Assembly: GCA_038087015.1 (NCBI GenBank) | Contig: JASBNA010000073.1 | Location: 1-64,000 of the forward strand | Source of the DNA: Cerrena zonata | Taxonomy: Eukaryota; Basidiomycota; Agaricomycetes; Polyporales; Cerrenaceae | Length of the DNA stretch: 64,000 nt | Reading direction: 5' to 3' | Shown: positions 6,982 to 63,039 of the stretch, in pieces | Numbering within the stretch: the stretch's first letter is position 1 | How the letters are laid out: each line of letters starts with the position of its first letter | Program-made: the position numbers and the translations under genes | Notes under the pieces: model-generated | What the model was told of the DNA's origin: nothing | Seen by the model: the letters and a program-made list of their open reading frames with translations, nothing else | Database searches by the model: none

Positions 6982-7576
6982 TCAAGACCAAGAAGCAAGT
7001 GCGATCAGAGTGGCAAGAGCCGTCTTGATCGGACCGATAAACTCTGCCAACCATTGTCGAGTTTTCTCCTGAAACATGAAAAGCAATAACGCCAGGATCA
7101 AGGTCTGAGCCAGTGCCAGAGGCAGAAAAATACACCGCCCTGCCAATGAGAGTGGGAGATGGCGAGGGGACTGGGGATATGCCTTGGTCTTTCTCGGTCT
7201 CCATTAGCTCGTTGATTCTTTTCTCCAGTCTGTCAGCGGTTTTGTCGCTCTTATGTAAGGGCCGAACAAAGGACTAAGCGTGCAAGTCGAGCACCGACTT
7301 AAGTTGCGTGAGACTCAGTTCTGTATTTGGTACGAGAAAGCGATCAAAGTGAAGATGAGGAATGTAAACTTACTTTGTTGGAACTCTGCATCGTTTGTTC
7401 TCGGTATCGAAGGAGGCATTTCGGAGATCCATAGCTTGGCTCTCATAAGGACTCCATTTTGACATGGGTCGTCTATGGTAGTGGTAAGCGACGAACAAGG
7501 TTGGCGGAAATACTTCCTTATAGGGATGAATTGAAACTCCGGAATACATCAACAACGCGTCAACAACTTGAATCAT
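6982..7576 (-). pseudogene. Decayed 3' half of the unknown gene family (copy A)
   Basis: Reads VVDALLMYSGVSIHPYKEVFPPTLFVAY and later DKTADRLEKRINELMETEKDQG, both closely like 13,178-13,916 and, for the first block, 63,685-63,976. Relative to those copies, an internal block (the RGVSEIITDVFEPFDHRGK region) is missing. A TAG stop sits in the LDLHA*SFVRPLHKS segment where the other copy has TGG (Trp). A clear intron (GTAAGT...ATACAG) at about 7,312-7,373 is shared with copy B. After it the frame runs to EKTRQWLAEFIGPIKTALATL and a stop at 6982, matching copy B. No 5' half is visible, so this is a truncated, dead paralogue. Confidence 0.7.
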
Positions 7577-11471: not shown

Positions 11472-13044
11472 ATGTCTTCACTCTCACAGGACGATATTGA
11501 TGCATTGACCTCTATCGGCCATGAGACTACTCAAACCATTGTGTGTCTCGTAGTGGAGGCCATTATGTACAGTGAGTACACACACGCATCTGACCTTTGT
11601 ATCGTGTCAAGCTGATCTTCCACAAGCCTTTTTCTTCATCTTGGTGATCATGGCTGGACGGATCCAGTTGTACGCTCTCTATACTTTGACAAACTGCCTC
11701 CTACTGACCAAAAAGAAATATGTACAGCCGGAAAGGTTCTAGGCTGTCAGTGACTATGTTTGGGGTCATTCTTATCATATTCCTGTTGGATACCGCAGGG
11801 TGTGTCCTTGATGTCAACAACGCCATCCGCGAGATAACGTTGACCCTCACCTCAACTTCCTCCCTGTCACTCTCCGATAGGTATGCGTCGACTTTCAACC
11901 TACCTTACTCTATCTCCAATTCGCTTTTCGCATACATGGTACCATCATGTCTTTGTCATCATACCATTTATCACTCATCACTCCTTTACCAACAGATTTG
12001 TTTCGGAGACGTGATCATCGTTTGGCGAGCATATGTCTTTTGGTGCTACGGTAAAGGACGCCTGATAATGATCCTGCCCATCTTCACCCTCATTGGCACC
12101 TTTGGTAGGTTATTCATCAACTATGGTTTCAATCATGCTCATCAACACGCTAGGAATAGCCGGGGTCCTATCCTTTTGTGTCGCGCGAGATATGTCGACG
12201 TCCGATAATTTCGTCACACCTCCTTTCTGTCATCATATTCAGCAAGATGTGTACAGCTTGTCATTAGGTACTACTGCTATCTCCACTGCTTTGACTTGCT
12301 TTAAGACATGGTGAGATATCAAGATGTCCTTCTTATCGTTTATAGAAATTCTGAGCAATTCTAGGACTTACCGACGAGAGATCGGAGAACATCTGAGTAG
12401 ATCCAACAAGAAAACACGTACAGAGAAGATCATGCTGATCATTGTCGAGTCCGGTGTACTCTACTTCCTCTTACTCGTAAGTGACGACTACATACTACTG
12501 CTCCTCCGGGAAGTACCTAACAACATACTATTCACCGTAGCTGGAATTTGTCATTGGTGACATTCCTAAAGTCCTCAACGCTAAATATGCGAAATATAAT
12601 CTTACCTTCGCTAATTTAGTCTGGACCTACATCGCAAACCATCTTTTGGTGCGTGCATCTACACACTCTTATACTTATACTTATATCTACCACACAGGGG
12701 ATATACCCTGCACTTATGGTGATCCTGGTCAACTCACAGCGATCATGCCTGGAAGAGTCAATTATCTCAATACACACAATGAACCAAGACATACGCACTC
12801 AGAACGTCTCGGTTCAACAGCCGCAGGTACTGCCTATTCGAAAAAGAACTTATCTTTCATGCGTATAAGTTACATGGCCACACACGTTATTGAGATTAAC
12901 GCTTCTAAGACTCGTGAAGTAGGTGTTGTATCTGAACATATAGCGACCCTCGCTGACGAGTCTGAAGCGAGGGATGAAGACAAGCACTATTCATTTGACA
13001 TATTTCGGCACACCCCAGTGATCTCGATTTTCCGACAAAGCTAG
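11472..13044 (+). CDS. Seven-pass membrane protein of a basidiomycete family
   Basis: Starts MSSLSQDDIDALTSIGHETT, followed by hydrophobic exons: IVCLVVEAIMY, FFFILVIMAG, VTMFGVILIIFLLDTAG, GDVIIVWRAYVFWCYGK, SIMLINTLGIAGVLSF, KIMLIIVESGVLYFLLL and YPALMVILVNSQRS. The GD-x-I-x-V-WR-A motif after the third segment and the R-x-EKIMLI-x-VESG motif before the sixth are typical of a large basidiomycete family of predicted seven-pass membrane proteins with no assigned role. A hydrophilic C-terminal tail ends at 13,044. The join between the second and third hydrophobic exons (about 11,660-11,725) is unclear: one reading meets TAG, so an intron boundary or a lesion is hidden there. Confidence 0.65.
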
Positions 13045-13177
13045 AGACATAGCTTAAATTAAAACAGGTAGTACAGGGAATCACGGATTACAATAGGACG
13101 AAGAAAATATGCATATACACACAGAACAACAGCAGTTCCAAAGTGACGAGGGCGGAAAACAAGTGGAAGTAGACAGA

Positions 13178-13998
13178 TCAAGGAGTGAGAGCAGTGAGAG
13201 CAGCAAGAGCCATCTTGATCCGATCGATCAATTCCTTCAACCGTTGACGAGTCTTCTCTTGAGACAACGAACACAATAATGTCAGTATCAACGCACGAGC
13301 CAGTGCCAGAGGCAGACGGATACACCGGCCTACCGACGAAAGTGGGGGGTGGCGAAGAGACTGAGAACATGCCTTGGTCTTTCTCGGTCTCCATTAGCTC
13401 GTTGATTTCTTTCTCTAGTCTGTCGGCCGTTTTGTCGCTTTCGTGTAAGGGCCGGGCAGAGGACCAGGCGTGGAAGTCGAGCATCAACTCGAGGAGCATG
13501 AGGCTCAGCTCTGTATTCAGGTCAGAGAAAGAGACCACATTGAAGATGGGAGATGTAGACCTACTTTCTTGAAACTCTGCATCGCGTTTGTTCTCGCTGT
13601 CAAAGGGTGTAACAATCTTGCCGCGGTGGTCGAAGGGCTCAAAGACATCAGTAATTATTTCGGAGACGCCTCGCTTGGCTCTCGCAGAAGCTTCGTCTTT
13701 ACTAGCTACTGGATTATTCGAGATGCTCTCCATGCTAATTCGTGGGTATATGCGTCGTCTATGGTGGGGGTAAGCAACAAACAAGGTACTCGGGCAAACT
13801 TCCTTATCAGGATCAATTGAAACTCCGAAACGCGTCAACAACGCATCAACTACTTCAATAGAGCGAGCTTCAAGTTTCTTTACCTGCAGGTTGCGACATT
13901 CTACTCCTGCGATCACCGACTTTGATCTGTTTTATCGCGCTACTGGTACCAAACCTCTACTCATGTAGAAGACTCCCTTTACAGGAGAATCATGTAGT
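13178..13998 (-). pseudogene. 3' half of an unknown gene cut by the KDZ transposon (copy B)
   Basis: From about 13,916 the frame reads VVDALLTRFGVSIDPDKEVC, FVAYPHHRRRIYPRISME, RGVSEIITDVFEPFDHRGK and VTPFDSENKRDAEFQE. A 54-bp intron (GTAGGT...ATACAG) leads to LSLMLLELMLDFHAWSS and DKTADRLEKEINELMETEKD. A second intron (GTAGGC...TCTCAAG) restores the frame into EKTRQRLKELIDRIKMALAA and a stop at 13,178. Upstream, 13,917-13,998 still matches the exon before this block in the relative at 63.6 kb (TSSAIK versus TSNAIK). The match stops exactly at the KDZ element. The missing 5' half lies on the same strand beyond the element at 31,748-32,290. I do not recognise the protein family; it is hydrophilic with a helical C-terminus. 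Confidence 0.7.
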
Positions 13999-14005
13999 CG
14001 GGTGA
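13999..14005. repeat. Target site duplication of the KDZ element, left copy
   Basis: CGGGTGA here is repeated directly at 31,741-31,747, just outside the inverted termini. Seven bases match; one more could be counted with a mismatch, which would fit the 8-bp duplications reported for Zisupton-type elements. Confidence 0.75.
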
Positions 14006-14125
14006 CAGCCCCTTCAGTGCTCTTTCTCCGTATAACACGATACCAAGTGGGGGTAATATACTCGTTACTGGCGGGTCAGTCAGGGCTGCGTGGCCATGTA
14101 CATATTGCCGTATGACACGGGGTAA
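14006..14125. repeat. Left terminal inverted repeat of the KDZ element
   Basis: Begins CAGCCCCTTCAGTGCTCTTT and matches the reverse complement of 31,624-31,740, which begins CACACCTTTCAGTGCTCTTT. The match runs through CCGTATAAC, ACCAAGTGGGGG, CTCGTTACT and TGTACATATT to GTATGACACG, with scattered substitutions and no large gap. Confidence 0.85.
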
Positions 14126-14315
14126 ATAGCCCGGCTTGATGGGGCCATTGCTTCTGCTCACCCGGGTCAATTTGCCCAATTGACTGCATTACCTTGCATT
14201 AGCTCGCCTCGAAAGGAGCAGGTGAGTCTGCCAGACTGGGATAAATTGATAAGGGTAGGGTCCCACAGAGGTGGCCTGACTGAAATTACGTAGCTTTTTT
14301 GTGTCCATGTATTAC

Positions 14316-15780
14316 GATCCAGTCCTCCCGACTCCTATAGAGTACATATTGTTTACATGCGTGGGCTGTGAGCCAGTCTACCTGACTAGAGTAGAATTAG
14401 CATTGGCTTATAGGTGGATTATAAATCACTTCGTCCCAGTCAGCCCGACTAAGATAGATAGTAGTAATTTTGTGTCCGTGCACCATGATCCAGTTGGCCC
14501 GATCCAAATTAATATTATGGTTTTCTCATCCGTGAGCCCTGAACCGATCAGCCCGACTGGTATTAATGTGGCCATTTTTCCGTTCGTGAGGCTCGAACCG
14601 GTCAGCCAGACTGGAATTAATGCGACCGTTTTTCCGTTCGTGAGCCTCGAACTGGTCAGCCAGACTCGAATAAATGCCACCTTTTTTCAATCCATGAGCC
14701 TCGAGCCAGTCTGACAGACTGGAATTGATATGGCCGTTTTCCCGTTCGTGAGCCTCGAGCCAGTCTGACAGACTGGAATTAATGCGACCGTTTTTCCATT
14801 CATGAGGCTCGAACCGGTCAGCCAGACTGGAATTAATGCGACCGCTTTTCAATCTGTGAGCCTCGAGCCAGTCAGCCAGACTGGAATTAATGCGACCGTT
14901 TTTCCATTCATGAGGCTCGAACCGGTCAGCCAGACTGGAATTGATATGGCCGTTTTCCCGTTCGTGAGCCTCGAGCCGGTCTGACAGACTGGAATTAATG
15001 CGACCGTTTTTCAATCCGTGAGCCTCGAGCCAGTCAGCCAGACTGGAATTGATATGGCCGTTTTCCCGTTCGTGAGCCTCGAGCCAGTCTGACAGACTGG
15101 AATTGATATGGCTGTTTTCCCGTTCATGAGGCTCGAACCGGTCAGCCAGACTGGAATTAATGCGACCGTTTTTCCATTCGTGAGCCTCGAACTGGTCAGC
15201 CAGACTGGAATTAATGCGACCGTTTTTCAATCCGTGAGCCTCGAGCCAGTCAGCCAGACTGGAATTGATATGGCCGTTTTCCCATTCGTGAGCCTCGAGC
15301 CGGTCTGACAGACCGAAGTCACAGTGGTATTTCCTTGTTCGTGTGCCATGTAGCAATCAGCCGGACTGAAATTAACGTGGCTATATTTCTATTTGTGAGC
15401 CTCGAGACGGTCAGCCTGACTGAAATTAACGCGAGCGTTTTTCCATTCGTGAATCTTGAGCTGGTCAGCCAGACCGAAGTCACAGTGGTATTTCCTTGTT
15501 CGTGTGCCATGTAGCAATCAGCCGGACTGAAATTAAGGTGGTTGTTTTCCTGTTCGTGTCTTGCGACGGAGTCGGCCATACTCAAATAAACACTAGACAG
15601 TTTGGTTGTTGATGCACCTACACCTAGTCTGCCTGACTGGAACTATTATTTGTAATTTCCTGCGCACGAGCTTTGACCCAGTCAGCCCGACTAGACTAAG
15701 ACTCATCTTTTCTTTCATGGATAGCATTAGAAAAATATATATGTGGCTGGGAAGTAACCACTCAGTCTGCCCAGCTGGAG
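14316..15780. repeat. 54-bp minisatellite in the KDZ left subterminal zone
   Basis: The regular core, about 14,550-15,330, repeats a 54-bp unit about fourteen times. Each unit contains GTCAGCCAGACTGGAATTAA or GTCTGACAGACTGGAATTGA, then ATGCGACCG or ATATGGCCG, TTTTTCC and GTGAGCCTCGAGCC. Degenerate units extend on both sides. The centre of the unit is nearly palindromic (CCAGTCTG-A-CAGACTGG). Because 54 is a multiple of three, long open frames appear on both strands (for example 15,356-14,526 on the minus strand, with an 18-residue period). I treat these as a by-product. The array lies between the inverted terminus and the first gene, where many DNA transposons keep transposase-binding repeats. 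Confidence 0.85.
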
Positions 15781-16104
15781 GCAATGTATTTAGCACCTAC
15801 CAGACTTCAACTCATTGGTATGACACTCTCACTCAATGAAACAGAGAAACCTTGCCACCATCATTTGTATTATACAAGTTCGCATCCGGTATCCATATTC
15901 AGCCTCTGCACGCACATCCGACATCCATGCTTACATTCCCTTCTCCACATCCGGCATCCGGATTAATCAAGTTCCATGGGTGTATTGTCCTGCAATTCTC
16001 GCAATTTCCTGACGGCACGAGAAAGAAGATCTTGTGATTGAGTTAATCTTCTAACATATTGCCCGACAAGGTCTCGAGGGATAGAGACATTATATAGCCA
16101 TTTC
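15781..16104. other. Spacer between the minisatellite and the first KDZ cargo gene
   Basis: No coding exon is visible. It holds three ATCCGG motifs (about 15,885-15,960), the first of a motif that is dense across the rest of the element. Confidence 0.4.
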
Positions 16105-16746
16105 TTACATAACGTCAATAATGCTTGCTACCGGGTTGAATGGGGTGCATACCTCTTTTTCTGGCTCATCCCACCAGTGTGGTTTCTGCTCGATTGCATC
16201 AGTATTCTCATCGTAGGTCCACCAATAGCTCTCTCCTTGTGCGATTTGAGGGACAGTTCCATCAAAGAGCTCCGATAGGTTGCCCATGGATGGAGCGTTA
16301 GGGTCCGGTAGCTGGGTCCAGTCAATGACTGGTGGATATTCATCAATATGCAGCCACCGGAATCTTGCATCGATAGCCTTGCTTAGACGGGTAGTCATTA
16401 ATCCACGGAGACACATATGTGCTAGTGCCTTCTCTAGATTTTCCTACTATACATATAGTATGTGCCGGATGCAACTCAGAGTAAGACCACTCACTGTTTC
16501 TATGGTTAGCCCAATTTCCCACCGCTTATAAACAAGGGCTTTCTTGAAATCTTCTGTCCGGTCCAGAACCATCTTAAATGCCCTAGCGGCCTCATCCAGC
16601 CTCCACATTCGATACAATACTCTCCATGCTACATGTCCCTCAATGGAATATCTACAGTATTCACAAGAATAGTCAGTATTCTCTCCAGAAGAGCAAAGTA
16701 GATGAGTGACGGACAGTCCGTCCTCAGTGTTTTCCTGGTCTGCCAT
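16105..16746 (-). CDS. Small KDZ cargo protein of unknown function
   Basis: Starts MADQENTEDGLSVTHLLCSS at 16,746. One intron (GTGAGT...TAGTAG, about 16,440-16,494) joins RWEIGLTIET to ENLEKALAHMCLRGLMTTRL. The product is about 185 residues. The first half looks helical, with CEYCRYSIEGHVAWRVLYRM and AARAFKMVLDRTEDFKKALV, a pattern reminiscent of a helical repeat. The second half is Trp/Pro-rich (WWTYDENTDAIEQKPHWWDE). It lies 158 bp downstream of the transposase on the same strand, inside the element. I do not recognise the family. It could also be a separate 3' module of the transposase transcript. Confidence 0.5.
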
Positions 16747-16903
16747 TGTGACAAGTACTTTGTGCGGAAGATGAAAGTAGTGGGTAAGGTGATCGATGCT
16801 TATCAGATCAACAGAGTAAACGTTCACATACTTGTGTATACAAATAGATGTAAACAATATTATAAAATCAACAAACATGCCGGATATAGAAAGGCTATAA
16901 TAC

Positions 16904-19900
16904 CTATCCGGTCATGCGCAATACGGCATTATCTACCTGACTTGCTAGTAAATCCCATGTTCTAGCCTGCTTATGCGCATAAAACCGAAGTCGCGGATGG
17001 TCCGATTCAGCCTCTGCAGCGCGATGTAGCCATAGGTCTCTTCGGTGCAGATGGAATAATCGTGTCCATAGCATCTCGGCCTTAGTTAGTGCAAGTTCCT
17101 CAGCCCAACGGTCACGTCTAGCTTTTGCCCTAAGCCAGTTGACACGGTACACTTCAGAGGGATATATAAGTCAGAGCACACGAGAACAAATAGAAATGCA
17201 ACAAACATTCATCGAGCCATACCGGATCCTCTCCCGGATCATGTTGGGTATGCCAAATCCATGACAAACCATTATTCCTTTCGCCCCGAGCGTTGGGATC
17301 TATAACAGCAGTACTTGCAGCAAGGTCAGTCTTGTTTAGCACCTTAAACCTGGATAGGACATCCGGTGAGGCTCCTAGAATGTCTAAGGCACGTCTTGCA
17401 GAAGTATAAATCTGAGCGGCTTGATCAATGGACATTTGCAATGTGTGCTTCTCTGCGTAGCTCCTAAGTCTATTCTTGTACCCTGAATTCCCACTGGCAG
17501 GGCGGAACTTTGTGCGGAAATTGAAGGATTTCTGACCGATAGCAATCCGGAGGTAACGTAGCGAATCATTTGCTTGTCCGATTCGGAGATCTAGCTCGAT
17601 TGCAGCGAGACCTTGCAAGCGTGTTTTACAAGCAACTTTACCAAATGATGATGGAAGAGGAATGGGTAAGCACTCTGCCAGACGGCCATCCGCTATCTCG
17701 AAAACAGGTCCATCCGGATTGTGTTGGTCATCCGGGTCCTGCAAATCATCTCCAGCAATGTCTTCCCAGTCATCCAGGACGGCGGATAAGTCCGGATCTG
17801 CCTCATTGAGGATTGATACAAAGTCTTGTGACTTTGATCGGAAGTTATCAATCTCAGCTTGCAAACTGAGCCGTTTCTCCAGGAGCCGCTTGGTTTCTTC
17901 TGCAGTGGGAAATCTTCCTGCTCTCCGGACCTCCCTTCGAAGTTCAATTCTACTGCTGATTAGCTAGGTCCAATATCCTACCGTAATCACTTACTGTTGC
18001 TCTGTGATACGAAGACCTGATGTGACCCATGATGTTGAGCCTTTGACAGTGGATGTGTTGGGCTGTAACTCCCTATAGATCCATATATTGGCCATGACTG
18101 TTTTTCCGGGTGCTATTTATGAGTGTAAGCGGGCGATATGGGTAAATAGGGACCAGAAGAAAGACCTTCTTCTTCCTTGACATCAAAGATATCCATTGCT
18201 GTGGGATCCTGGTCTCGTTTCTCTTGGGCATCTGCCTCCTCAGCAGCCCACAGATCACACTTCTGTTTCCCTACGGATTCGCAAAGTGATATAAAATCCT
18301 CTTCAGATTCCACTGCCTGCTCAACTGCACCTTCCCACTTGCGAAATATTGACAGAACTGCGAATAGAAGTTGATATCAGAAATATAAACATCGGATGCA
18401 TAACATGTACGTCTTACCCATTCCGATCAGTTTCTTCCAGTTCGAATCACCCATATGTGTATCCAAGTACTCCTGTCGATGAAACCATGACATCGCTCTC
18501 GCACTCGAGGCAGTATAGTTCAGCAAGTTCCAAAGGGTCTCTATAATTTCGCCATCAAGCATACCAGCCCCTTGGATAAAGGTGGGGGCATATCTAGCGA
18601 AGCATTCCTTTACATGACCATGAACGTGAAATAGCCCGATACCTCGTTTGAATTCAACGCCATCCGGGAGTCGTAATTCATCAGGCATACCAAGCAATCG
18701 TTTGAGGAAGTTGACCCAAAACTGACACATGATGTCATAGAGAAGGAAGACCAGGAGGGACTGCCGGATATAAAGAATTGCTTGAATAAATGCGTAATCC
18801 ATATAACGTTGCCTTGGGAGATATTAGTAATGTTGATTCAAGTATGATATGTCCTTACCCTTCGCCTTTGCGGAAGTTCACTACTGAGTGCGGGTAAAAG
18901 CAGCCATGACGTCCGCAAGCAATTGCACCAATCCCTGTCACGTCTAGATGGGCATGGGATTGATTTTGTTGGGTCACAGCACGATGCTCATGACATGATG
19001 GCTCCTGTAACGAATACTTGATTCATATGAGTAGGATATCAACTGTTACTCCTCTTACCAGGGTAACCGGATCTGAGGTTGATGCCAGATACTCCTCAAA
19101 GGGAGCCCGGGTCACCATATACCCATGTCCATCGCTGAGAGGTACATCGTCTGAGTCATATTTCATCCTCAAATGGTCTTGCTTGAAGTTTCCATCCGCC
19201 AAGAGCGTCCGCATATATTTCTTCCTGTGGGATAGTTCAATATATGTCCGGAGTAGCATGAGACCGGATACATACCGATCTGGATCGCTCTGCCAGTCGT
19301 CCGGAAGGTTAACACCCGGCTGTGGACATGCAGGACAGAAAAGTGCCAGGCCCCCAGCTGGTATTGCATCCGTCGAGCTGTATGCATACCCAGCTCGTTG
19401 TCTTGCTTTCAAGTTTCTCCATTCTCGTGAAATGACCAAGAGCTCCCGGTATCGATTTGGAACCATGGTTGGGAATGCATTTGCTGTGAGCCGAGTCAGT
19501 TTGTCGTAATGTTTTGCTGCAGATGCTTTAGTCTCCAGGTTTTCAAGATCATAGTCATCCAATGCTTCAAATGTGAAGACAGTTCGTGTCTTCTTTCGCG
19601 ATGCCGGATACAGCCCCATGTACAGCATCTGGTCGAAGATGGGTATATCCTTTCCTAATATGCAGCGGCATGGGCGTATTCGAAGTTCGTGTACACCCGA
19701 GGCATGAACTGATGTAATTAATGGACAGTGATACGAATCGTATCCTCGATCCGGCTTTTTTGCACGTAGAGGAATACCCCCAGTTGTGGGGTCCCTCCAT
19801 GAGTCCTCATCATCACTATCGATATCGAGGAATGAGTCAATGTTGCTGCAAGGATGTCCGGGGATTTCTGGAGAGATACTGGGGGTAGACGTAGGATCAA

Positions 19901-20589
19901 CATCCATGGGGTCCGACTCAACGTCAGGAGCGGATGCGGACAGTGAGTTTGGATGAAGATATGCTGGACAGAGATCCCCACAATGCCCTAAGTTCAATGT
20001 GACACCTGCTTTCGACAGCGATGACCTGTGAAATGCGTTTCCGTCCCACCGAGATACCATATGGAAAGGAAGATTCTGGTGTGACCGGCGTATACACTCG
20101 CTACAGTACACCGGATCCCCAAAGCAGGAATGGCATCTCCACTGCATCGGGTTTGTCGTTTTCACCGACTTGCAGGTTCTGCAAACTGCATCCATTGGAG
20201 GAGCATCACGCTCAGTAATTATCTTCAAGATGTGGTCACGACACTGTAAAAATTCTCGGAGGAGATCATTTTGGTTCTACAAAACAACTTGCTTAATGGT
20301 GAACGTGTACAGTACAGCGATCCCTTACATTGCTCCTAACAGGGAGACGTCCCAGCTCATGATGAACTGAATCCTGCATGTCTTGATCGAAGTCACCAGT
20401 CCATTGGCCATCCGGAGTATGAAATGAAGTTGATTGGAAGTGATGTTGAGGTGCTTCCTGCTGAGTTCGCCCAAGGGGAATCTTACGTAGTTTTCGACGC
20501 TTATGATGAGACCGTAAGGATGATTCCTCATAGACGTTATTGAGGGCATCCTCAGCATGCTGTTCTTTTTTCCGTCGTCCGGGAGCCAT
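16904..20589 (-). CDS. KDZ-family transposase
   Basis: Starts MAPGRRKKEQHAEDALNNVY at 20,589. The second large exon (20,283 to about 19,060) has a CxC2-type cysteine cluster: CRTCKS, CHSCFGDPVYCSECIRRSH and HMVSRWDGNAFHRSSL, then ADGNFKQDHLRMK with the first catalytic Asp. Later exons give CHEHRAVTQQNQSHAHLDVT and GAIACGRHGCFYPHS, LLYDIMCQFWVNF, FHVHGHVKECFARYAP and DGEIIETLWNLLN. All are hallmarks of the KDZ transposase, an RNase H-fold DDE enzyme with zinc-binding inserts. A long helical C-terminal part ends WLRAKARRDRWAEE...RMTG at 16,904. The protein should cut and join the element's ends in the nucleus. No stop or frameshift is obvious in the conserved blocks. The exon at 18.1-18.37 kb is the least certain. 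Confidence 0.88.
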
Positions 20590-20659
20590 ATAGTATTTTC
20601 GAATAGAGATAGGATTTCAGATTTCGGAGAATACGATGAACTCAACAGGATGAAAGGCT

Positions 20660-22041
20660 TTATGCTAAAGGTGTCGTATCCTTAGGCATACGTCTACGAA
20701 TGTTATGCCTCTTTGACCCAATGTAGCTATTGTATTCATGCTGAGTCATCCATGACGCAGATTGAATACCCAGCTCCTTCTGAATGTTTTTCCGCATGTA
20801 CAGCGCCAAAGTGACCCGAGGTGAAACCCGTCGGACTCCATGCCAAAGAGCCCTCCCGCCGAAGATGCAGATTGTACCGGGAGGATTATTTACCCGAACA
20901 CCCAAGTTGGCTAGATATAGTGGTGCATGCCTGTACGGTCCGAAAGATAAGAGAAAGTCAAACCATTTCCATGACTCATGAAGATCTCGATGGAATGGAG
21001 ACTCCCGGTTGGTGATAACGGATATTGCAGTGAACACCATAGGCCATCTACCTAGGGCCTCCTTGCAGTCTCCAGATGCAATCATACTGTCCTTCATCTC
21101 TTTCGCCATTTTGTACTGTTGGGGATGAGTGATGGCTAGGATACCGGACACAACGGCAAATGGATCGCGAGCGACGGAAAGAAATGTGTGTCCCTCTGGC
21201 CGTTGCAAAAAGGGTGTTGTGTGAGGCGGGCTCTGTCAATATCATATATCAACGCCACCAATATTCCAGATAAAGGTTGAAATGTTACCTTGTGACCGGC
21301 CATGTACCACGCTGCAGACAGATTTGCCAACCCGGTTGAAATATAATTGTTGTCAGGCTCAAAGTACGCTGAATCTGTGCGCCAGGAGCCGCTTTCTTCA
21401 GGACGATGAAATTTCTTGGTGAGTGAAGGCCCAAGGATGCAGACGGCTTGATGAAGCTTATCCTGTTTGGAAACAATTAGACTTCTCAATATATGCTATG
21501 CCGACCCACAAACCTGGTAATGAGGTGGGATAATTGATGGAAGAATCCAGGTAATTATTCTGCCGGATGGATCAGCAAATACGCGTGGTTCGTCAACTTG
21601 GACGGTGGGCGAATACTGAGGAGGCCATCGTCTAAGGATCTCTTCCTCCCGCTGAATGTTACCACCACAACCAAGAGAACTCCATTTGCAGTCCCTGCAA
21701 TACTCAGCAAAGTCCCAGGAGATGTATGCTGACAGGAAGTAAGTCAATTTAATGGTCCGAAAAAGGGAGATATACGCACTGATGTTGGTAAATGCAATGA
21801 TAAGTATTCTAACCACATTTGTACATACATCGAGTAACTCCCGCCCCCATCCGGATGGGCATTCCGGTTCCTGAGGTGGGCTTGGGTGCAAGGTGGTTAC
21901 GGCAAGCTCGTACTTGAATAATGCCTGCATGAATGCAGCCACATCGGATGAGTGTTGATCTCCGTTGATGTCGGGAACGTAAGTAGACATTCCGAGTAGA
22001 GGGCAGGGTGACGTCAGAGAAGCACACATCGCTTCTATCAC
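20660..22041 (-). CDS. TET/JBP-family 2-oxoglutarate/Fe(II) dioxygenase
   Basis: The last exon carries the double-stranded beta-helix core: SPFHRDLHESWKWFDFLL with the iron-binding H-x-D (HRD), then GTICIFGGRALWHGVRRV with the distal His, and RVTLALYMRK with the Arg expected to bind 2-oxoglutarate. Upstream exons give PRVFADPSGRIITWILPSII and GSWRTDSAYFEPDNNYISTG. Fungal TET/JBP enzymes oxidise 5-methylcytosine in DNA and are repeatedly carried by KDZ transposons. All metal ligands are present, so this copy is predicted to be active. It follows the transposase on the same strand, 71 bp upstream of its start. The 5' exon around 21.84-22.04 kb, including the choice of start at 22,041, is tentative. 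Confidence 0.85.
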
Positions 22042-22277
22042 ATATAGTCTCTATGTTGCGGCTTGTTTGGACTTGATGGTTGGCCAATCCGGATCCTCAA
22101 ATGAATGATCCAGAATCTCAGATGCCAGATCCGGATGGAGCAAGATCGAGCTGTCTCAGATCTAACGCAGCCACAGCCATATGGTTTCAGCCCCGGTTAA
22201 ACGTTGCATGCAGCACAATGTTACGACCATATATTTGAACTTGAACAACTTCAACTCTAACTTCAACATTCTCAGAA

Positions 22278-25200
22278 ATGGCAAAGACTAAGCAAGCTAC
22301 ATACAACTTTAGTCCAGCCCAATGTGTACACCTTGAGACACTACTACCTCAATACGTTGACTACTTGAAAGATGATGATGCCGACGGATGTGATCAAACG
22401 ATAGCGGAAGCAGCAGCTATCATCTGTGGTGAAGCAGGAATCAAAGACCAAGCGAAGATGGAATCTGTAACTGCAGTAAGGATTCTGAATGCAATATACA
22501 TATCCCCCTCTACATTACTAACCAGAGTCCGTTCAGAGCGTTCGTCAGTGGCTCACCATCAAGGCGAGCAATGAGAAGAAGTCTCGGGTGGTGAAACCAT
22601 TCGAAGTCACCGGGAAACAATCATTCCATACTGCCCAGTGGGAATCGACGATCAAACCAGCAGTGTTAAAACTGCAAAAGTTCCAATGTCCTCATCCGAA
22701 CAAGCACCCCGACTGGTTGAAGGAGATTATGATAACTCGAGACGCTCTCTGGTCTGGGTTAACGGATGTTGAACGTAAGGTGTATGAGGTTCAAGCAGTA
22801 CAGTTCAATGAAGGCACGCTTGCCAAAGAAATTAAAGCCTTGTAAGTGACTTGTACTAAGTATCTACAATGCTTGACTAGAGTATTATTGTCCATTATGA
22901 CAGGTATGGTGATAAACACTTCGAGGAAGAGTTGCAGAAAGTGCTGAATCGATTTGGTGACCTGTTCGATGCACGAATCATTGCAGTAACCGTGCGTCCG
23001 GGTACTGAAGGAATCATGTCTTCCATGTACGAGTTTTAATTGCTTCGACCTCAACCAACTGAGACTGATAGAAGGCCTGCTAATACAGAATGGAGTCAAA
23101 GGGGACGTCAAAGTTCTTGAAAACGTTGCCTGAATCCAAACGGTATCAGTGGAAACCGGCAGAGTACGTGGCCAAGATGCAGGAGGAGTTGGGAGCCACA
23201 GAGGGTGATGATTCGGATGATCCAACTCTCCGGATGAAATACGATGGGAATAGAAGGCCGATCCTTCCTAGAGGACCGTACGACAGACAGACAGAGACCC
23301 TCCGGACGCTCTTAGCTGATCTTGTTAGGGAGAATTACAGTAAGTGTTCTGCTGTATCACCTCGATGGACTATTGACATAGTACAATTACTAGACAGAGT
23401 GATGGGGTATCCGAAAACTGTCGTGGGACCTCCATGGAGTCGGATGACTGGTCATTGGTCCCAGTACATTGATCCAAAGTTCTTTCCCTCTCAAGCATCG
23501 CTTCCGGATGACTTCGATTTGGATGGGTTCGTTTTGCAGCGGCCCCAAAAGATGCCGATTGCATTCATCCTCCAATGGGCAGAGCACGTGGTAGAAAGAC
23601 AGGACAAGAAGGACCGTGGTGAACTAGAAGATGGCGAGGAAGTGTTTAGCTGGAAAGTGTATTGGTCATTGAAGAAAGGGACATGGGTGCCGGAGGGAAC
23701 TCCAAATGACGCGAATGAGGACAAAAGGAAACGTAGACAGAAGAGAAAGCGTGCCACGCGGGAGTATGAACAGGACGAGGAGGAAGAGGTGGAAGATGAG
23801 ATCGCGAATGGCTTGAATCAGCTTGATTCCCCCATCGATTTTGGCCCAGCTGGTAACGATATTGCACCGGATGTGGTCAGCTCGAACGCGGATGGCTCTG
23901 GAGTACAGATGAAGGGAAAGGGAAGCATCCGTCCGGGCTCACCTGCTTCCGTCGGCGATATCTGGTCAGATAGGGTAACATTCCTTCGTCAACTTTGTGA
24001 TGACATGAATTATCGCAAGCTTGTGAATTGGCTGGACACATTCCAGGTACATAAAGTCAGGATTTCCGAGTAATGCAAGGTGTATCTAATTCTTTGGCTA
24101 TTCTAGACTGATACGCAGCTTCAAGACGAGATAATTCCACGTGCGTGTCCGGTTTTTGGCGCGATCGGATGGGAAAACCCGTTGCCATACCTTCCGGAGT
24201 CGGTCCACACGGGCGTAAATGGTAGTACTATGATTGAGTCTCTTCTGACTCTATGGGAGAATCATGCACAGACACTATGGGGTGTCAATGGAGCGGTTGA
24301 GGAGTTGTTGTTGATTGTAGGTCAACTCATCCACGACGTACGTATTGGTCAATTTGCACAAAGGGATGCTGAAGACCCATGGCCTGCCCATCTTCCTGTG
24401 TTTCTCTCCTACTCAAACTTTTCGATGGCTATGGAGAACAGAATTACTACCATCTGTGGAGCGATATGGAACACTATTTGCTACACTGCACAGCTGGAGC
24501 TGTTTGGCCAGATGCAGCTGCCACCGGACATGTTTGGGATATCCGGACCGACTCCATCCGGATCCAACGCCCGGGCAATTTTGGGGATTGACGAAGCGCA
24601 GTCCTTCATCAGTATGATCCCTAACAATCCTATTCCACCACCTGCCACCTTTGCTGCTCCAACAACTGCGAACACGACGATACCTTCTATGCCCATATTA
24701 TCCTCTGCAACGGGTAATCAATCATCACTTCCACCCATTACACCCTCCAATTCTGCCGCACAGGAACCTGTTCCCGTCAAAGAGAAGGGGAAATCGGTTA
24801 AGCCTCGTCAGCCTGCAAGGAAAAAAACCAAGCAGGGTGATGCAAGCAATGCCATTGCTCAGGATTCTGCTCTTAGAGGTGAGTGTCTGGATTTGTGTAT
24901 GCGAGGTAAGCCCTTGAAACTCACCGGATCTGTCATAGGTGCATCCGGGGCAAGCGCATCCGGACAAGGTGCATCCGGACAGGGTGCATCCGAGCAAGCT
25001 GCATCCGGACAAGCCTCATCTGGACACCTTGTATCCGGACAGCCGCAACCAGGACACCATTCTGCACATAAACCTGGATCCCTTCCACCTTCTGCATCCG
25101 GACCGGATGTACCCCGTCCAGAATCATCCGGATCCGGTGCTGTTCGCCATCCGCCAGGCATCAACACGGATGTAGAAGATGATTCTCAGCCACGGACGCT

Positions 25201-25330
25201 TAGAACCAAGCAGAAGATGATTTGGAGGAAAGACGGTTCCAGAGTTCCTGAACAACAGCCTGCTGAGCCTGTGGCTACAGGTAAAAAGAAAGCTGCAAAA
25301 CCTACATCCAAGAAAAACAGCAAGAAGTAA
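22278..25330 (+). CDS. KDZ cargo protein with a divergent HMG-like segment
   Basis: Starts MAKTKQATYNFSPAQCVHLE at 22,278. The introns I read lie at about 22,470-22,528, 22,843-22,902, 23,030-23,088 and 24,047-24,106, and all keep the frame. Residues 65-170 include QWLTIKASNEKKSRVVKPFE and DALWSGLTDVERKVYEVQAV, which has the W-x(2)-L-x(3)-ER-x(2)-Y-x(2)-A pattern of an HMG-box second and third helix. KDZ elements are known to carry a divergent HMG gene, so this is the likely match. The middle is basic-acidic (KRKRRQKRKRATREY, then EQDEEEEVEDE), and the C-terminus holds ASGQG repeats and a Lys-rich tail. It is divergent from the TET/JBP gene across about 235 bp, so the two may share a promoter. 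Nuclear location and DNA binding are inferred. Confidence 0.7.
24940..25140 (+). repeat. GCATCCGGA short repeats inside the HMG-like gene
   Basis: GCATCCGG(A) recurs about seven times, mostly every 12-18 bp, giving an Ala-Ser-Gly-Gln-rich stretch. The same word is also repeated in the Copia LTRs at 38.5 and 43.5 kb. Confidence 0.7.
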
Positions 25331-25513
25331 TTTTCTCTCTGATCTTCCTGACACAATTCAACTTGTATCTGTTCATAACTTGTGCTCTACACCTCAACCG
25401 TGCAAAGCCTTCTATTCAAAACTTTTTTATGTCATCCTGCCATGCGATCTCTCAAGAATATATTTTTCCTACAACACTGTCCTTAATCTAAGTCGTATAC
25501 TACCGGAAGTCCT

Positions 25514-28500
25514 TTAATCCTCCACCATAGCCTCTCCACTGTTGCTTGCCTTGTCATCCGACTGGTCTATTTCTCCCTCTTCCAGTTCATCCTCCTCTGT
25601 GTCTCCATCACCATCCGCATCCGGATCAACCGCCATATCAGCTGTATCGTCCTTAGCTACCTCACCTTCCGTATCTGTCTCGGAGACTTCCAGTTTCGTA
25701 CTGCTATCATCCACAGATACATTGGTTTCATTTTCCTGCAATGAAACAGCCTCCGGATCCTTCTCTTCTTCTTCCAGTTCTGGCTCTTCGTCCTCTGTAT
25801 CGGACTCTTCTGTGGCATTGCTGTCGTTTGGTGAAACGACGTCCGGATGCTTCACACTGCTGGAAGACAATGATATGGGGTCGCGAGCTACATTAGATGG
25901 CTGTCCAATTACTTCTGCAAATAAAATCAGACCTTTTCAACCTCCAGTAGGGTTCTAAAAAACGTACCTTGATTTAAAGATAAATCGCCTTCCTCGGATT
26001 CACTACCGGACGTCTGTGAGGCATCCCCTGAGGCATCCCCAGCATCCGATATCTCACCGGATTGCATCACGACGTTCTTCGCATCTTTGTCTTCATTCTT
26101 GAACACCTTGATATCGTCCGGGTCGTCCGTGATAGAGCTGTCCTCTGGTAACTGCTGGGTGTTATTGAGGTGGCGGTCAAATCTTTCGTCCAGATATTGC
26201 TTTATGTCCTCAACTGATCGATTTATCTTGTCATCGATATGGGCCTCCACGTTTTGTAGGAAGGTCGCCAGTTTCTTGTCCACAATATCGGTGACGTCCT
26301 CCGACATTCCATTGAAGACAGCCTTCGCAGCGAGTTCACCTGCTTCTAACCACTTCCCTGCAAGTGTAGCAAGTGAGGTTTCGGTGAGGTTGTACAACTC
26401 GGACTGAATCCGGTTATCTATATGCGCTCGCTCGTTGGTGAGCAACTCGGTGACACCCTCCAGTATCTCCGCACGTTGTCCGAGCAAGGCCATGGACAAT
26501 CTCTCCATTGTCACTGGAACTTCAGGACTCTTGAAGTCTGCCGTTTGTCCAAAGGTGGCTGTTGATGGTCCAGCAACCGGCTCGTTCTCTGCAGGATTTG
26601 TAGGGCCGGTGAGAAAAATTTCTTCTCGGTCCACTTCGATACGCTCCACGGCCGTCAAAGCCACTTTAACTCAGTTAAGCATGTGTTTACGTCCCCTTAA
26701 TATTCGTGTACGTACCTTCATCCTCATCTGTTTGACTTGGAACCCTCCTCATTATCCTAGGAGGACGTTTTCCTACATATGCTCTTCCTGTGCCGGATGT
26801 ACCTTTGATGACCACCTCTTCTTTCTTGGCTTTGACTGACTTGGCGCACATCGCTCGTGGCACATCCCGCTCCTGGATAAGTGTCTTCTTTGGCTTCTTA
26901 GACGTTGACCATGGCTTCGATGGCCCTCGTTTTACTGACCGGGATCCAGAAGGTGCCTGTGAGGACACTCTAGCCTTCGAGGTTGAGGGTACAAGTGGAA
27001 GTACGGATGTTGGGCGACCCTCAGTCACTGACTGCGATGGGGATACTGTCTTCCTGGACGCTTTCGATGATGCTCTAGTTCGCGGTCTTGGCTGTGGTAC
27101 TGTTTTGGCCATTGCGCGGGACCGTGATCTTCCTCTTTCCGGTACTTCCTCACTCGCCTGACCCGTAGTGTCCCATGGCCGCTCCAGAGTGTCATTTTCG
27201 GCTTTGGCAAGAATACTCTCGAACCGGGCCCTCGCGTCTTTGGGGAGTATTGGCCATTTGGGGGATTCCGACCTCTTGGCTTCAAGATCCTTGTATAGAG
27301 ATGGTGGTAGAGCATAGTAAACTGGAGCTTTCAATGCCTTCTTTTCGATTGCCAGGTCACTTATTTCTTTAGAGGTGAGAGGCTGCAGGACAGAGGATGG
27401 CTTCTTCGATGGGAAAGGGGGTATCTTGACACCCGTATAGTCAGCTGCAAGGTGCTGAGGCCCTTTCTCGGTATCCAGCGCGAGCACGTTAAGTACATGG
27501 AATACCAACGTGATATACCATGGCCAATGTGATTGGCCTTTCATGTTCTTTAGCTCGCCCTTGGCTGAATAGTCGGCCTTTGGAGCCAGGGAGCATCCGT
27601 TGGACAAGATCTTGCATCTCCAGCAACCGTGAAAGTGCCCGAGGGCTACGAAGCAATCGTGGCCTCCCTGAGCACATCCCTTACATGGTATAGGCTATAG
27701 AAGATTATTTTACCGACCATACTGTGAGAAGGGTTGAATTGTAAACTTACGGACAATTGCTCCTTTAGCGCTGCCTCAAACATAACGTCCTGGTTCGCGA
27801 ACCGAGAGACATCACCTTGTAAATCTAAAATTGTCAGTTTTACTTCCACTATTGCATATGGTTATACTTACCAACGTCCTTAAGCTCAAAAAGAGCTTCC
27901 GGAGCAGTCATCACCTCGCGGCCTTTACCTTTCCTATCCGGAGGGGGTAATATCTCGCGACCTTTACCCTTCCTATCCCGGACCGGTTGAGGTACAGTGG
28001 GAGGCAGTGATATTTCACTAGCCTCATCCGCCATCTCGACATCCTCAGGCTCCAGGTCGCGGCGAGGTCTTTTAGGCTTAGGCTTAGTTGGGTGACTGGT
28101 ACTGGGCATTTCTGCAGCAATTGCATGAGATTTCGGAGCTGAACCAGATGGACCGCTTGCTTCGCTTGTTCCGGATACTGGACCTGAAGTGTTTTCAGAG
28201 TCGGTAGAGGTCCGTGGCCTTTTATTCTCTATATGGTATTTTGCGGCGGTTAGTAAATCGAAGATACACTGCTAGAAAGGCACTTACTGCTTGATGGTGT
28301 TGCTGTCAGCGGTTGGTATTGTGATTGAAACAGAGTAGAAAACAGTGGGAAACGTGGGTGAGTGTTGAATAGGGGGGATTCCAGACATAGTACGAGGGGA
28401 GGCTCATCTCGAGCTGCACGAGCAGCATTTAGATCGAAAACTATGGAGTGCGTAAGTTTCTTTGTGCATTCACAGGAAAAGACGAGCTTACTTAGCTTAC

Positions 28501-29003
28501 ACCAGAATGGTTGAGCATCCGCCGGGTTAGGCCATTCCAGATCTTCACAGAATGTAGGTTGACGGTCATAGAACTCCATGTATGGCTTTGTCAAGTAGAA
28601 GGCCTGCAGGAAGTCATCTTTCTTCCAGCATCCAGATACATCTCTATCTTGAGGCACCCGGAGATGAGCAAAACTGGAGAGTATATACGGGACACCATCC
28701 GAAACGCCGGACAGCGTGTCTCGAATGCGAACCCATACAGATTTCTACATGACGTATTGCATCACGATAAAACACACGGTTGAGTCGAAGATTTAGTATA
28801 CGTACAAGATGTTCATAGACACTGTTGAAGTAATACATGCTTTCCCTTCTTTCCATGTTGTCCGGTGCAACAAGCACGGCTTCTCGGACCATGAATGTCA
28901 AGACCCAGAGCGATACCTGCTCTGCGGATCGAGGAGCTCGGCCACTTGCGGTAGCACCTTGGGTGAGGGGTACATTCATGTTGGTTTTCAAAGTGTAAGA
29001 CAT
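25514..29003 (-). CDS. Large KDZ cargo protein with a zinc-type cysteine cluster
   Basis: I read one multi-exon gene starting MSYTLKTNMNVPLTQGATAS at 29,003. Exons join through GT-AG introns at about 28,430-28,490, 28,230-28,290, 27,825-27,870, 27,692-27,750, 26,665-26,715 and 25,916-25,967. Features in order: CWKKDDFLQAFYLTKPYMEF; basic nuclear-localisation-like runs NKRPRTS and PKPKRPRRD; a cysteine cluster PCKGCAQGGHDCF...GCWRCKILSNGCS (27.58-27.69 kb) that looks zinc-binding; a long Ser/Pro/Lys-rich linker; a helical segment AILEGVTELL to EDIKQYLDERFDRHLNN; and a very acidic end (EEDELEEGEIDQSDD). The charge layout suggests a nuclear chromatin-type protein. I do not recognise the family. 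It could be two genes if the splice at about 28.2 kb is wrong. Confidence 0.6.
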
Positions 29004-29233
29004 CCTTGTTTTGATAGTAAGATTGAACGCGAGTTTGGCAGCAGTGATGGTAAGTGGATAAAACTTGAAAGTGCGATTGATCGCCACACGGATTAGTCCT
29101 AAGTCACACATTGTGACATGTGATTGCGGATGCAGTTATATCATCGATCAGCCTTTGATCTGTCACTTCCGATTGGTTGGTTGTTGCATAGCAGTATTTC
29201 TCTTCCTACTACATCCGTCTAGGAATATTCAAC

Positions 29234-31110
29234 ATGTCAGAAGCTAACAAGAAGGTGAGTGTTGCACATCAGTTGAAGTTTCTTTCTACTCACTGACAGC
29301 TGGATACAGGTGGTACGATTTACCGGATTGGTCTCTGTAGGTCCAACTTCACAAATACATATCCGCTGATCTGATATTTGCGTAAATGGGTTCAGGGACT
29401 GGATGGTGCTTCATCTCCATCTGGAGAGGATTCCGGTTTTTGGTACCAAGAGGGTGGTCCATTTTTCCAACTTGGTCTCTCAGCACCTCCCGCCTCAACG
29501 AGCCACTCTGCTGACCTTGAAAGGCGATCTGCAGGTATTAGGAATACGCTGATCCCTGACTTAGATGCCGTGCAGTCGCCATCACCAATTGAAAGCCGTA
29601 CATATATTCCAGACTTACGCAGTGTACGATCGCCATCGCCAATTGAAAGCCGGCCATTTGTACCCAACTTAGACACGGTACGCTCACCATCTCCAATCAA
29701 CACCCATCCGTTCATCCCCAACTTGGACATGGTGCGCTCACCATCCCCGATTGGCACTCGCATGTCATCTACTATTAACTCACCTGGACCAATCGACTCT
29801 CGTCTGTTCATCCCTGACTTGTCTACAATCCGCTCGCCGTCCCCAATCGACTCACGTCCGTTCATCCCTGACTTGTCCGCAGTCCGCTCACCATCCCCAA
29901 TTGAAAGTCGTTCTCAATTTCTCACTACCATCATGGGATCATCCTCTTCATCCTCAACACCCAGTCTCAGCTCGCACGATGCAATCTCACATCTCTATGA
30001 GCAAAATGTAACATTTATGCAAGGACTTGAGCAGACCGCTCTCGTCCGGAGCATGAGAGACATGAACATCAACTCAACATCTTCTGGAGAACAACAAGAC
30101 TACTCATCCTATGGCCGCATGACCCTGGTTATGGATGAAATGGACCTCTTTTTCTGGTCTGTTGTCAAGACTAACTGGTTTGGACCTAACCTGCTTCCGA
30201 CTTGGAGAAAATGGGCAAGAAGCAATAAGATGACGGTCAAGCTGATGGAAGATTTACTAGACTACCCGCAGAGGTATTCGGTGTTATTCAGAAACTACGG
30301 CATAGTATGTTTTATTTCCCAGCTTATGAGTGTCTTAGCTCATCCCGTACCGTAGGACCCAAGTTGCGGATTACCTAAAGACGAGACCGGACGCTTCATT
30401 TTGCCACCCGCGGAAATGGCGGAAATAGTGCCTCGCCTGAAGTTGGTCCTCACTGAGTACCCTAAGATGGTAGAAAGGGCAGGCGACAAGCAACACTCTG
30501 ATAAAGTATCTGAAGAGGTAGCTGGACTATCTGAGGTACTAGAGGAGCTGTCTCAGGATGAAGGTACTACAACTATGTCAGCTGAAGAGACTGAGAAGGT
30601 GGCAGATATAGAGTTTCATTTAGCACACCAGGTAAGTAACCTATCATATCACCTTCGATCACTCATTGACACTACACTAGATTGGATATCTTAAGAACAT
30701 AGTAGATTGGAATGAGGCAATGCTGCGTCAAACAGATGTTTTTGAGGTAAGTACAAAAATCATATGGACTCAGCTGATTTTCCACTCACTTCCACCAGCA
30801 CCGTTCCACTGAGTCATTCGTAAATGCATGGAAACGCCACCTTCGTGGTGCTGCAGGTGTCCCTGAGCTCCGTATGATGGAAACCAGGAGCATAGCACCT
30901 AGCATCCTGACTCCGGTCATAGAAACTCCATATCCGAATATCCCTCCTCATCCATCCACTAATCTCCAGTATCCAGATGATGAACTGGATGATACGGAGA
31001 AACTCATTGCCAACATGACTGAGCTCAGCTCAGCCATAGGTGACCTTCGTATGACGACATCTCATGTATTTGGTACAACTCACTACAACAACTTAGCAAG
31101 GCAGACCTAG
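29234..31110 (+). CDS. KDZ cargo protein with SPSP repeats
   Basis: Starts MSEANKK at 29,234, followed by a tiny exon (VVRFTGLVS) and the main exon from about 29,397. Six tandem 18-residue repeats (consensus I-P-D-L-x-x-V-R-S-P-S-P-I-E-S-R-P-F) lie at 29,548-29,915. A Ser-rich stretch and a more regular region follow: MDEMDLFFWSVVKTNWFGPN, WRKWARSNKMTVKLMEDLLD, then after introns ETGRFILPPAEMAEIVPRLK, FHLAHQ, IGYLKNIVDWNEAMLRQTDV and SFVNAWKRHLRGAAGVPELR. The Ser-Pro repeats are candidate phosphorylation sites. It is the last gene before the right subterminal repeats and is divergent from the zinc-cluster gene across about 230 bp. I do not recognise the family. Confidence 0.65.
29548..29915 (+). 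repeat. 54-bp coding tandem repeat
   Basis: Six near-identical 54-bp units encode I-P-D-L-x-x-V-R-S-P-S-P-I-x-S-R-x-F, with one unit expanded (SSTINSPGPIDS). The period equals that of the non-coding minisatellite at the element's left end, but the sequences are unrelated. Confidence 0.8.
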
Positions 31111-31326
31111 AGATGGAATGTACTTTACAGAAATAATGTACCGCTTCTTTATCTTGATTGCAGTCAGCCAAATATACTGTGGGTAGCATGGAAATAGGTC
31201 AGACCCGTGAAGTCAGGCCATTAGATCGCAGTAGCCAGATACTAGTCGGCCGGACTGCCTCACATCTTGTGGATTGACGGTCACCGGCCAGACTATCCCG
31301 CCAGAGATGAAAGGTAACTTGAGATA

Positions 31327-31605
31327 CGAGTATACTAAAGACTCCTCTCTCACTGAGGCTCGTATGCTTCGACGGAGTCTGGCTGCCATACCCTCAATGT
31401 GAGTTGTCTATCAGTCGGCCTGATTGAGCCGGTCTAAACGGTACATTACAGGTAGATGTAGATAGCCCTGATCCGCCCGAGTATACTGAAGAGCCCTCTC
31501 TCACTGAGACAGCCAGACTCCATCAAATCATACGAGCCATACACTCAATGTGAGTCGTCTATCAGTCGGCCTGGTTGAGCCGATATATACGGTACATTAT
31601 ATGTA
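31327..31605. repeat. Direct repeat of about 152 bp in the KDZ right subterminal zone
   Basis: Two copies (31,327-31,452 and 31,479-31,605) share GAGTATACT(A/G)AAGA, CCTCTCTCACTGAG, CACTCAATGTGAGT, CTATCAGTCGGCCTG, TTGAGCCG and ACGGTACATTA. The zone also holds palindrome-like CAGTCGGCC and GGCCGGACTG words similar in style to the left minisatellite. The stretch 31,111-31,326 shows no gene. Confidence 0.75.
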
Positions 31606-31623
31606 TTCTAGTCGGGCGTACTC

Positions 31624-31740
31624 TCTCGTGTCATACGCTAATATGTACATGACTGCGCAGCCCCGACTGACCTGCAAGTAACGAGCATATCCCCCCCACT
31701 TGGTACCATGTTATACGGAGAAAGAGCACTGAAAGGTGTG
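31624..31740. repeat. Right terminal inverted repeat of the KDZ element
   Basis: The reverse complement matches the left terminus at 14,006-14,125 at about 85% by eye. It is followed directly by the target repeat CGGGTGA at 31,741-31,747. Confidence 0.85.
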
Positions 31741-31747
31741 CGGGTGA

Positions 31748-62936: not shown

Positions 62937-63039
62937 AGCGGGCGTTGTGGCTCTAGTACGCGTGCATGCGTCGCTTTTAGAGTCTTAAGTACCAGTGGAC
63001 CCTGAAGGCCTAACGCCCTAGTAGCCAGCGACGGCACGA

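Follow-up and report, generated by a model that had tools for sequence, protein, structure and literature searches.

Transposon-borne TET enzymes are known and their role is unproven, and what a transposon may gain from such an enzyme is a question raised by a 64,000-nucleotide stretch of the genome of the polypore Cerrena zonata (assembly GCA_038087015.1, contig JASBNA010000073.1, positions 1 to 64,000, forward strand; here called the window), in which a KDZ transposase gene and a TET/JBP dioxygenase gene lie side by side in the company of four further genes. The segment 14006-31740 is very probably a complete, autonomous-looking cut-and-paste KDZ transposon of the Kyakuja type, about 17.7 kb long, whose six genes form one unit and whose TET would counter silencing. 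The element offers exact ends, an element-free locus, subfamilies with near-identical copies, four further constant genes and a candidate recognition array, so that self-steered DNA oxidation by a transposon becomes a directly testable question with it.

The element measures 17,735 bp from its CA to its TG end, limits already proposed in a reading of the letters alone (the sequence-only reading) and recovered here from the target-site duplication (TSD) and the inverted ends; the 7-bp direct repeat named in that reading is present on both sides (Table 1). The inverted ends themselves were likewise found, at a length of 130 nt (14010-14139 and 31607-31736, 82% complementary) in place of the about 117 bp first estimated. 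A 32-nt pattern derived jointly from the two termini, scanned with at most 3 mismatches, matches the window at the two element ends alone and has 0 matches in 100 shuffles. On contig C131 of the same assembly, the sequence left of the element (12600-14005) directly adjoins the sequence right of it (from 31748), at 97-99% identity, and the joined flanks align to it unbroken over 1822 bp at 98.5%, the element not being there; C131 is an element-free homologous locus, and the search for an empty site, within this one assembly, thus returned the joined gene parts apart from a small junction difference discussed below. A further contig, C104, matches the left flank and stops short of the insertion site. 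Because a paralogous locus at C73:62176-64520 (minus strand, partly inside the window) aligns uninterrupted across the site at 79% over 2443 bp, with peptide pieces kept on both sides of the insertion point, both flanks seem to derive from a single spliced gene that has relatives nearby, in line with the two gene halves described before. Members of the local family to which this disrupted host gene belongs lie at 6943-7413, 13059-14005 and 62744-64000 of the window.

The survey of further copies covers one genome, the element's own assembly of 55.5 Mb, in which the left end has 17 matches, both ends of the window element included. The copies fetched form four subfamilies, about 17-24% apart over the left 9-11 kb and more toward the right, and several copies are nearly identical: the window element and the copy on C48 share a main block of 12.6 kb at 99.0%, C37 matches C32 and C18 at 99.4-99.6% over about 10 kb (other blocks of C32/C37 at 87-96%), the main blocks of C106/C107 and C98/C108 are 98.9-99.9% identical, and those of C4 and C6 98.6%. 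As the flanks of the copies share no match with one another at E 1e-10, these are different insertions, and near-identical copies at different sites therefore point to recent movement of the unit; by such comparisons the element is recently mobile in its host genome. Both ends are in view for seven insertions, and identical 7-bp TSDs border five of them (Table 1), of which the two that span contigs (C107/C106 and C108/C98) were paired by the TSD itself; the pieces on the two contigs share an overlap of about 10 kb with at least 99.6% identity, and the alternative pairing fits equally. Every element end printed begins with CA or finishes with TG. The copies on C4, C6, C18, C48, C98, C106, C107 and C108 run into contig ends, and the elements seem to break the assembly; at C22:504109-531505 an insertion seems to have split an element, with transposase fragments on either side.

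Whether the six genes travel together was examined in clusters of one representative match per gene and locus, with gaps of less than 10 kb, each query being the protein or a large part of it; the representatives were compiled by hand and further exon rows of the same loci dropped. All cluster counts are lower bounds, 100 of 128 transposase and 62 of 104 HMG-like candidates having been scored, and they refer to contig places, not to independent insertions (C106/C107 belong to one insertion and C98/C108 to another, and C59 and C153 have identical rows). All six genes are found in at least 12 of the 58 clusters, in one order and orientation in 12 of 12. A transposase match accompanies all 51 TET, all 22 HMG-like and all 18 Ser-Pro clusters, as well as 27 of the 28 clusters with a zinc-cluster gene and 26 of the 27 with a small gene; 18 clusters hold transposase and TET only and five the transposase only at the sensitivity used. 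The lone small-gene match (C22:529157) adjoins transposase fragments at C22:526214-526575 that were omitted from the count, and the zinc-cluster match without a transposase nearby, on C38, is weak (E 2e-5) and unexplained. Two divergent KDZ clusters (C1:2156056-2169528 and C37:322289-333671) have another arrangement, with the zinc-cluster and Ser-Pro genes on the opposite flank of the transposase and without an HMG-like match. Other copies of the terminus thus enclose the same genes, and the zinc-cluster, Ser-Pro and small genes are borne out as members of the unit by the constant order of the six-gene clusters and by the ratio of nonsynonymous to synonymous substitution rates (dN/dS).

Between subfamilies (up to seven copies) this ratio is 0.07-0.11 for the small gene, 0.08-0.17 for the transposase, 0.11-0.15 for TET, 0.14-0.15 for the HMG-like, 0.17-0.21 for the zinc-cluster and 0.23-0.32 for the Ser-Pro gene; C48 is too near the window copy for the purpose (0.19-0.64 at a synonymous divergence of about 0.02). 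Shifted sense frames of C37, C106 and C4 gave control values of 0.94-3.05, and antisense frames, one per gene, gave 0.17-0.39 but with 2 to 59 stops. All six genes show purifying selection, with an overall range of 0.07-0.32 that is partly built in. It could be argued that the additional genes benefit the host or simply ride along, and that nested elements came together by accident to form the unit, as nested elements do occur nearby (32570-55898 holds further elements, absent from C131); with six genes in one order in 12 clusters, transposase-less matches in two cases only, purifying selection on each gene and boundaries that recur with TSDs, this explanation is highly improbable. A composite or an assembly artefact was ruled out by the recurring boundaries, TSDs and gene order.

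The gene models stem from a spliced reading-frame search guided by conservation in C37, C106 and C4; in-frame stops are absent from all six models in the window copy, which is little proof as the method forbids them there. Among projected translations, C106 is free of in-frame stops in all six genes, and several other copies show them, be it by mutations, indels or the projection. The transposase holds a complete KDZ domain (PF18758, E 1.9e-48, positions 3-217 of 217) and a CxC2 cysteine cluster (PF18803, E 2.3e-16). The TET protein matches PF12851 (Tet_JBP) at E 2.9e-14, its nearest solved structure is CcTet 7vpn, and in the alignment the HRD motif and the distal His are kept, that is the HxD...H iron triad of AG-type TET/JBP dioxygenases, in agreement with the earlier claim of intact catalytic residues as far as it concerns this enzyme. 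The Asp337 position is also kept in this alignment, read by eye, and the equivalent of CcTET Gly331 is Glu in the window copy and in 8 of 8 other projected copies. For the divergently transcribed gene, the HMG identity given in the sequence-only reading found no support, neither Pfam nor profile searches against PDB sequences detecting an HMG-box, and the gene is called HMG-like here as a label. Single-sequence structure models were not used (predicted local distance difference test scores of 40 for the HMG-like protein and 36 for TET). The zinc-cluster protein carries the motif C-X2-C-X6-C-X9-C-X2-C-X6-C in the window copy, in 7 of 8 close and in 8 of 8 divergent copies, the single failure being C48, where the projected frame is out of register. 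Fungal Zn2Cys6 clusters have the spacing C-X2-C-X6-C-X5-12-C-X2-C-X6-8-C, which the spacing 2-6-9-2-6 fits, and a search against Pfam Zn_clus gave no match. A weak match of the small protein to GTA_TIM (E 0.009, below the cut-off) was taken as chance.

By TSD length, termini and gene content, the element is filed as a TET-positive KDZ transposon, putatively of the Kyakuja type. Kyakuja elements with TET are described with 7-bp TSDs and CA..TG termini and Zisupton and Dileera with 8-bp TSDs (Kojima 2025, PMC12730594), and the present element shares with the former the KDZ transposase next to a TET/JBP gene, the TSD length and the termini. It differs from two Laccaria Kyakuja families, which are presented, as a description and not as a definition, without terminal inverted repeats (TIRs), whereas the arms here measure about 130 bp, with 82% complementarity; neither a fixed set of six genes nor a subterminal array is named in the passages of that study used for the comparison (Kojima 2025, PMC12730594). 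The Cryptococcus elements KDZ1-3 are 9-11 kb long, have 139-241-bp TIRs and are mobile in the laboratory; their TSDs (8 bp in KDZ1, 4-8 bp in KDZ2 and KDZ3) and their CxC1 cluster stand against 7 bp and CxC2 here, and the passages on them describe the transposase with no mention of a TET gene (PMC12810828). In a study of KDZ and Plavaka elements of Marasmius oreades, TIR motifs of KDZ elements are stated to be characterised in the supplement (PMC8290104), a likeness among agaricomycete KDZ elements by which long ends in this group may therefore not be new. Among the open-licence papers listed in searches, none reported the constant six-gene set or the palindrome array. Elements of this kind were known before; what is new in this one is the conserved cargo together with the array, and its ends are longer than those of Kojima's families. 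Iyer et al. (PNAS, 2014) reportedly described KDZ transposons that bear TET/JBP alongside a divergent HMG gene. The transposase, TET and the divergent third gene would thus be common to both accounts; the present one sets out the ends, the array and, as constant members, the zinc-cluster, Ser-Pro and small genes.

What the TET may do for the element is approached through the mutations that separate its copies. Among the 222 differences counted in five pairs of close copies, 150 are changes of CpG to TpG or CpA (78/123, 16/21, 37/51, 3/7 and 16/20 per pair), compared with 24 of 119 in four host stretches against C131 (Fisher p 2e-17, changes treated as independent); the counts pass over sites where 10 bases held more than 4 differences, C37 was used twice, and a sixth pair, C18/C32 (33/48), was omitted from the sum. 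The loss is lopsided between the window copy and C48, with 65 CpG lost in C48 and 13 in the window copy, and the C48 transposase has three stops. Matches to DNA-methylase families above the cut-off occur on five contigs of the host genome, with modest E-values of 1e-8 to 9e-4. CpG-biased divergence and host methylases fit a picture in which 5-methylcytosine (5mC) acts on the elements and would give the TET something to oppose. In the proposed sequence of events, the transposase would cut at the inverted ends of about 130 bp and the TET would oxidise 5mC as the related CcTET does, both by analogy with their families, and oxidation of 5mC would let copies escape or delay silencing by CpG methylation. 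An anti-silencing role of the TET, taken by itself, is reasonably probable.

Alternatively, the TET could leave a mark at the ends, be it 5-hydroxymethylcytosine or oxidised N6-methyladenine (6mA), which the transposase or another element protein reads, without any unsilencing. The constant vicinity of the two genes (TET adjoins the transposase in at least 51 of 51 TET clusters) would suit such a coupling, CcTET is also active on 6mA (Kojima 2025, PMC12730594), and the Asp337 position mentioned above is kept; on the other hand, Kyakuja TETs are reported with Gly or Ser as the usual residue at the CcTET 331 position (Kojima 2025, PMC12730594) where the window copy and the projected copies have Glu, and the CpG-biased divergence indicates 5mC as a relevant mark. 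We consider this alternative unlikely.

Directly inside the left end, outside the gene models and thus in non-coding DNA, lies a tandem array with a unit of 54 bp, scored at 17.7 copies in 14521-15474, in which the palindrome CCAGTC-N5-GACTGG is the best-kept part. Scanned as CAGTC-N5-GACTG with up to 2 mismatches and with 20 shuffles each, the first 1950 bp contain 24 cores in the window element, 13 in C48, 30 in C37, 23 in C32, 24 in C107, 23 in C108, 30 in C4 and 30 in C6; 13 are found in 2000 bp of C115 and 19 in 1500 bp of C106, and shuffled left ends average 0.45-1.55 cores and never exceed 5. Within the 15-kb interiors there are 5-7 cores, and in the 46 kb of the window beyond the element there are 15. 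Right ends have 4-6 cores per 650 bp, none exact, at shuffle means of 0.2-0.55; the window element has 4, a number that a shuffle of its right end also gave. The exact CAGTCN5GACTGG has 219 matches in the genome on both strands, palindromes possibly counting twice, versus 9 for the reversed control, and among the 100 matches listed (contigs C1 to C41) 84 are in or at the left-end side of elements and 16 elsewhere by hand count. The palindrome centre differs between subfamilies (AGCCN-like versus CGTTC/GAACG-like), and a divergent copy on C41 has kept the half sites and the period of about 54 bp with a changed centre. The array, conserved across divergent subfamilies, is a candidate self-recognition signal of the element.

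How such a signal might be used is a more speculative matter. The element may encode its own DNA-binding protein, for which the six-cysteine zinc-cluster protein is the likeliest candidate, and this protein could bind the array and direct the transposase or the TET to the element; targeting of the TET via the array is possible but doubtful. In a more specific version, which we hold to be somewhat unlikely as well, a dimer of the zinc-cluster protein would read the array and bring the TET, mainly the element's own subfamily would be unsilenced, and the palindrome centre would set the specificity. Subterminal repeats serve transposase binding, synapsis and cutting in Spm/En, and the array could in the same way be where the transposase or an accessory transposition protein binds for synapsis and cutting, with a TET that works genome-wide and untargeted, an explanation with a little less than an even chance. 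The array does lie directly inside one terminus, with weaker copies inside the other, and TETs of the AG type have been speculated to be target-unspecific, with oxidised 5mC also found over Coprinopsis retrotransposons (Kojima 2025, PMC12730594); yet it is strongly asymmetric, with 24 cores in 1950 bp on the left versus 4 in 650 bp on the right, which a symmetric cutting signal would not need. For targeting of the TET by the array, the closest parallel comes from Arabidopsis, where VANDAL elements encode their own anti-silencing proteins, VANC, which bind and induce loss of marks, and carry rapidly diverging tandem repeats in non-coding DNA (PMC10398659). The likeness is one of description, between tandem repeats in the non-coding DNA of both elements, with a putative target role here; VANDAL is a plant element, and the abstract of that study mentions no dioxygenase (PMC10398659). 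If true, self-targeting by a zinc-cluster protein and a TET would be a fungal, enzyme-based counterpart of VANDAL/VANC.

Several observations weigh against a complete, mobile, silencing-resistant Kyakuja transposon and have to be set beside the evidence for it. At the junction on C131 (14024-14028), the three bases TGA of CGGGTGA are lacking by comparison with the window site, a difference that can be either an indel allele or an excision footprint. Identical TSDs were absent from two of the seven insertions (C37 and C115); for C37, the left flank CATCTCG is one letter off the right flank CATCTTG of C18, and a chimeric join may be involved. The separation of Kyakuja from Zisupton and Dileera, and hence the class suggested for this element, follows described features. 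The copies C37, C106 and C4 guided the gene models and also enter the dN/dS values, so that low values are partly built in, and distant copies recovered with the same models are more independent of the fitting. The neighbouring element has a CpG share of 4/5 and 11/35 in two comparisons, and the CpG bias may be a general transposon feature. Finally, the ratio of observed to expected CpG, weak as a stand-alone test, is 0.70-0.83 in six copies, with 0.91 and 0.98 in long host flanks, 0.77 in a short right flank, and 0.97 and 0.89 in Copia-like and Gypsy-like stretches nearby; by the lower values the copies seem to get methylated, and protection by the TET would be incomplete.

Table 1. Coordinates of the element in the window, with its predicted genes, and target-site duplications of further insertions
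Feature	Position	Strand	Remarks
Left target-site duplication	13999..14005	.	CGGGTGA, 7-bp direct repeat, window insertion
Left terminal inverted repeat	14006..14139	+	starts CA; arms 82% complementary
Subterminal array	14414..15710	.	~54-bp units, most with core CCAGTC-N5-GACTGG or variant; limits partly by eye
Small gene	15963..16746	-	4-exon model, 206 aa; no Pfam family above cut-off
KDZ transposase	16904..20589	-	9-exon model, 1089 aa; PF18758 and PF18803
TET/JBP dioxygenase	20660..21990	-	4-exon model, 390 aa; PF12851 in last exon
HMG-like gene, divergent from TET	22276..25330	+	~800 aa; no Pfam match; last exons uncertain
Zinc-cluster gene	25850..29003	-	~850-870 aa; C-terminal exons uncertain
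Ser-Pro repeat gene	29234..31110	+	~445 aa; 18-aa repeats ...SPSPI...; first exons uncertain
Three degenerate palindrome copies near right end	31243..31577	.	starts 31243, 31412, 31563
Right terminal inverted repeat	31607..31740	-	finishes TG; arms 82% complementary
Right target-site duplication	31741..31747	.	CGGGTGA, 7-bp direct repeat, window insertion
Target-site duplication, C32 insertion			ACCCCCC; 20.4 kb
Target-site duplication, C107 left end and C106 right end			GGCGAAC
Target-site duplication, C108 left end and C98 right end			GACTGAC
Target-site duplication, C16 insertion			AGAGCAC; 18.4 kb, much more divergent copy

To the right of the element, a second insertion of 23.3 kb (32570-55898), likewise missing on C131, opens with about GCATCAGGAAAAA and closes with about TTTTTCCTGATGG. 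Its termini resemble those of PlavakaB, given as CATCA..TGATG (Kojima 2025, PMC12730594), and the open reading frames inside it, named by eye, resemble a Plavaka-type transposase and Copia and Gypsy polyproteins.

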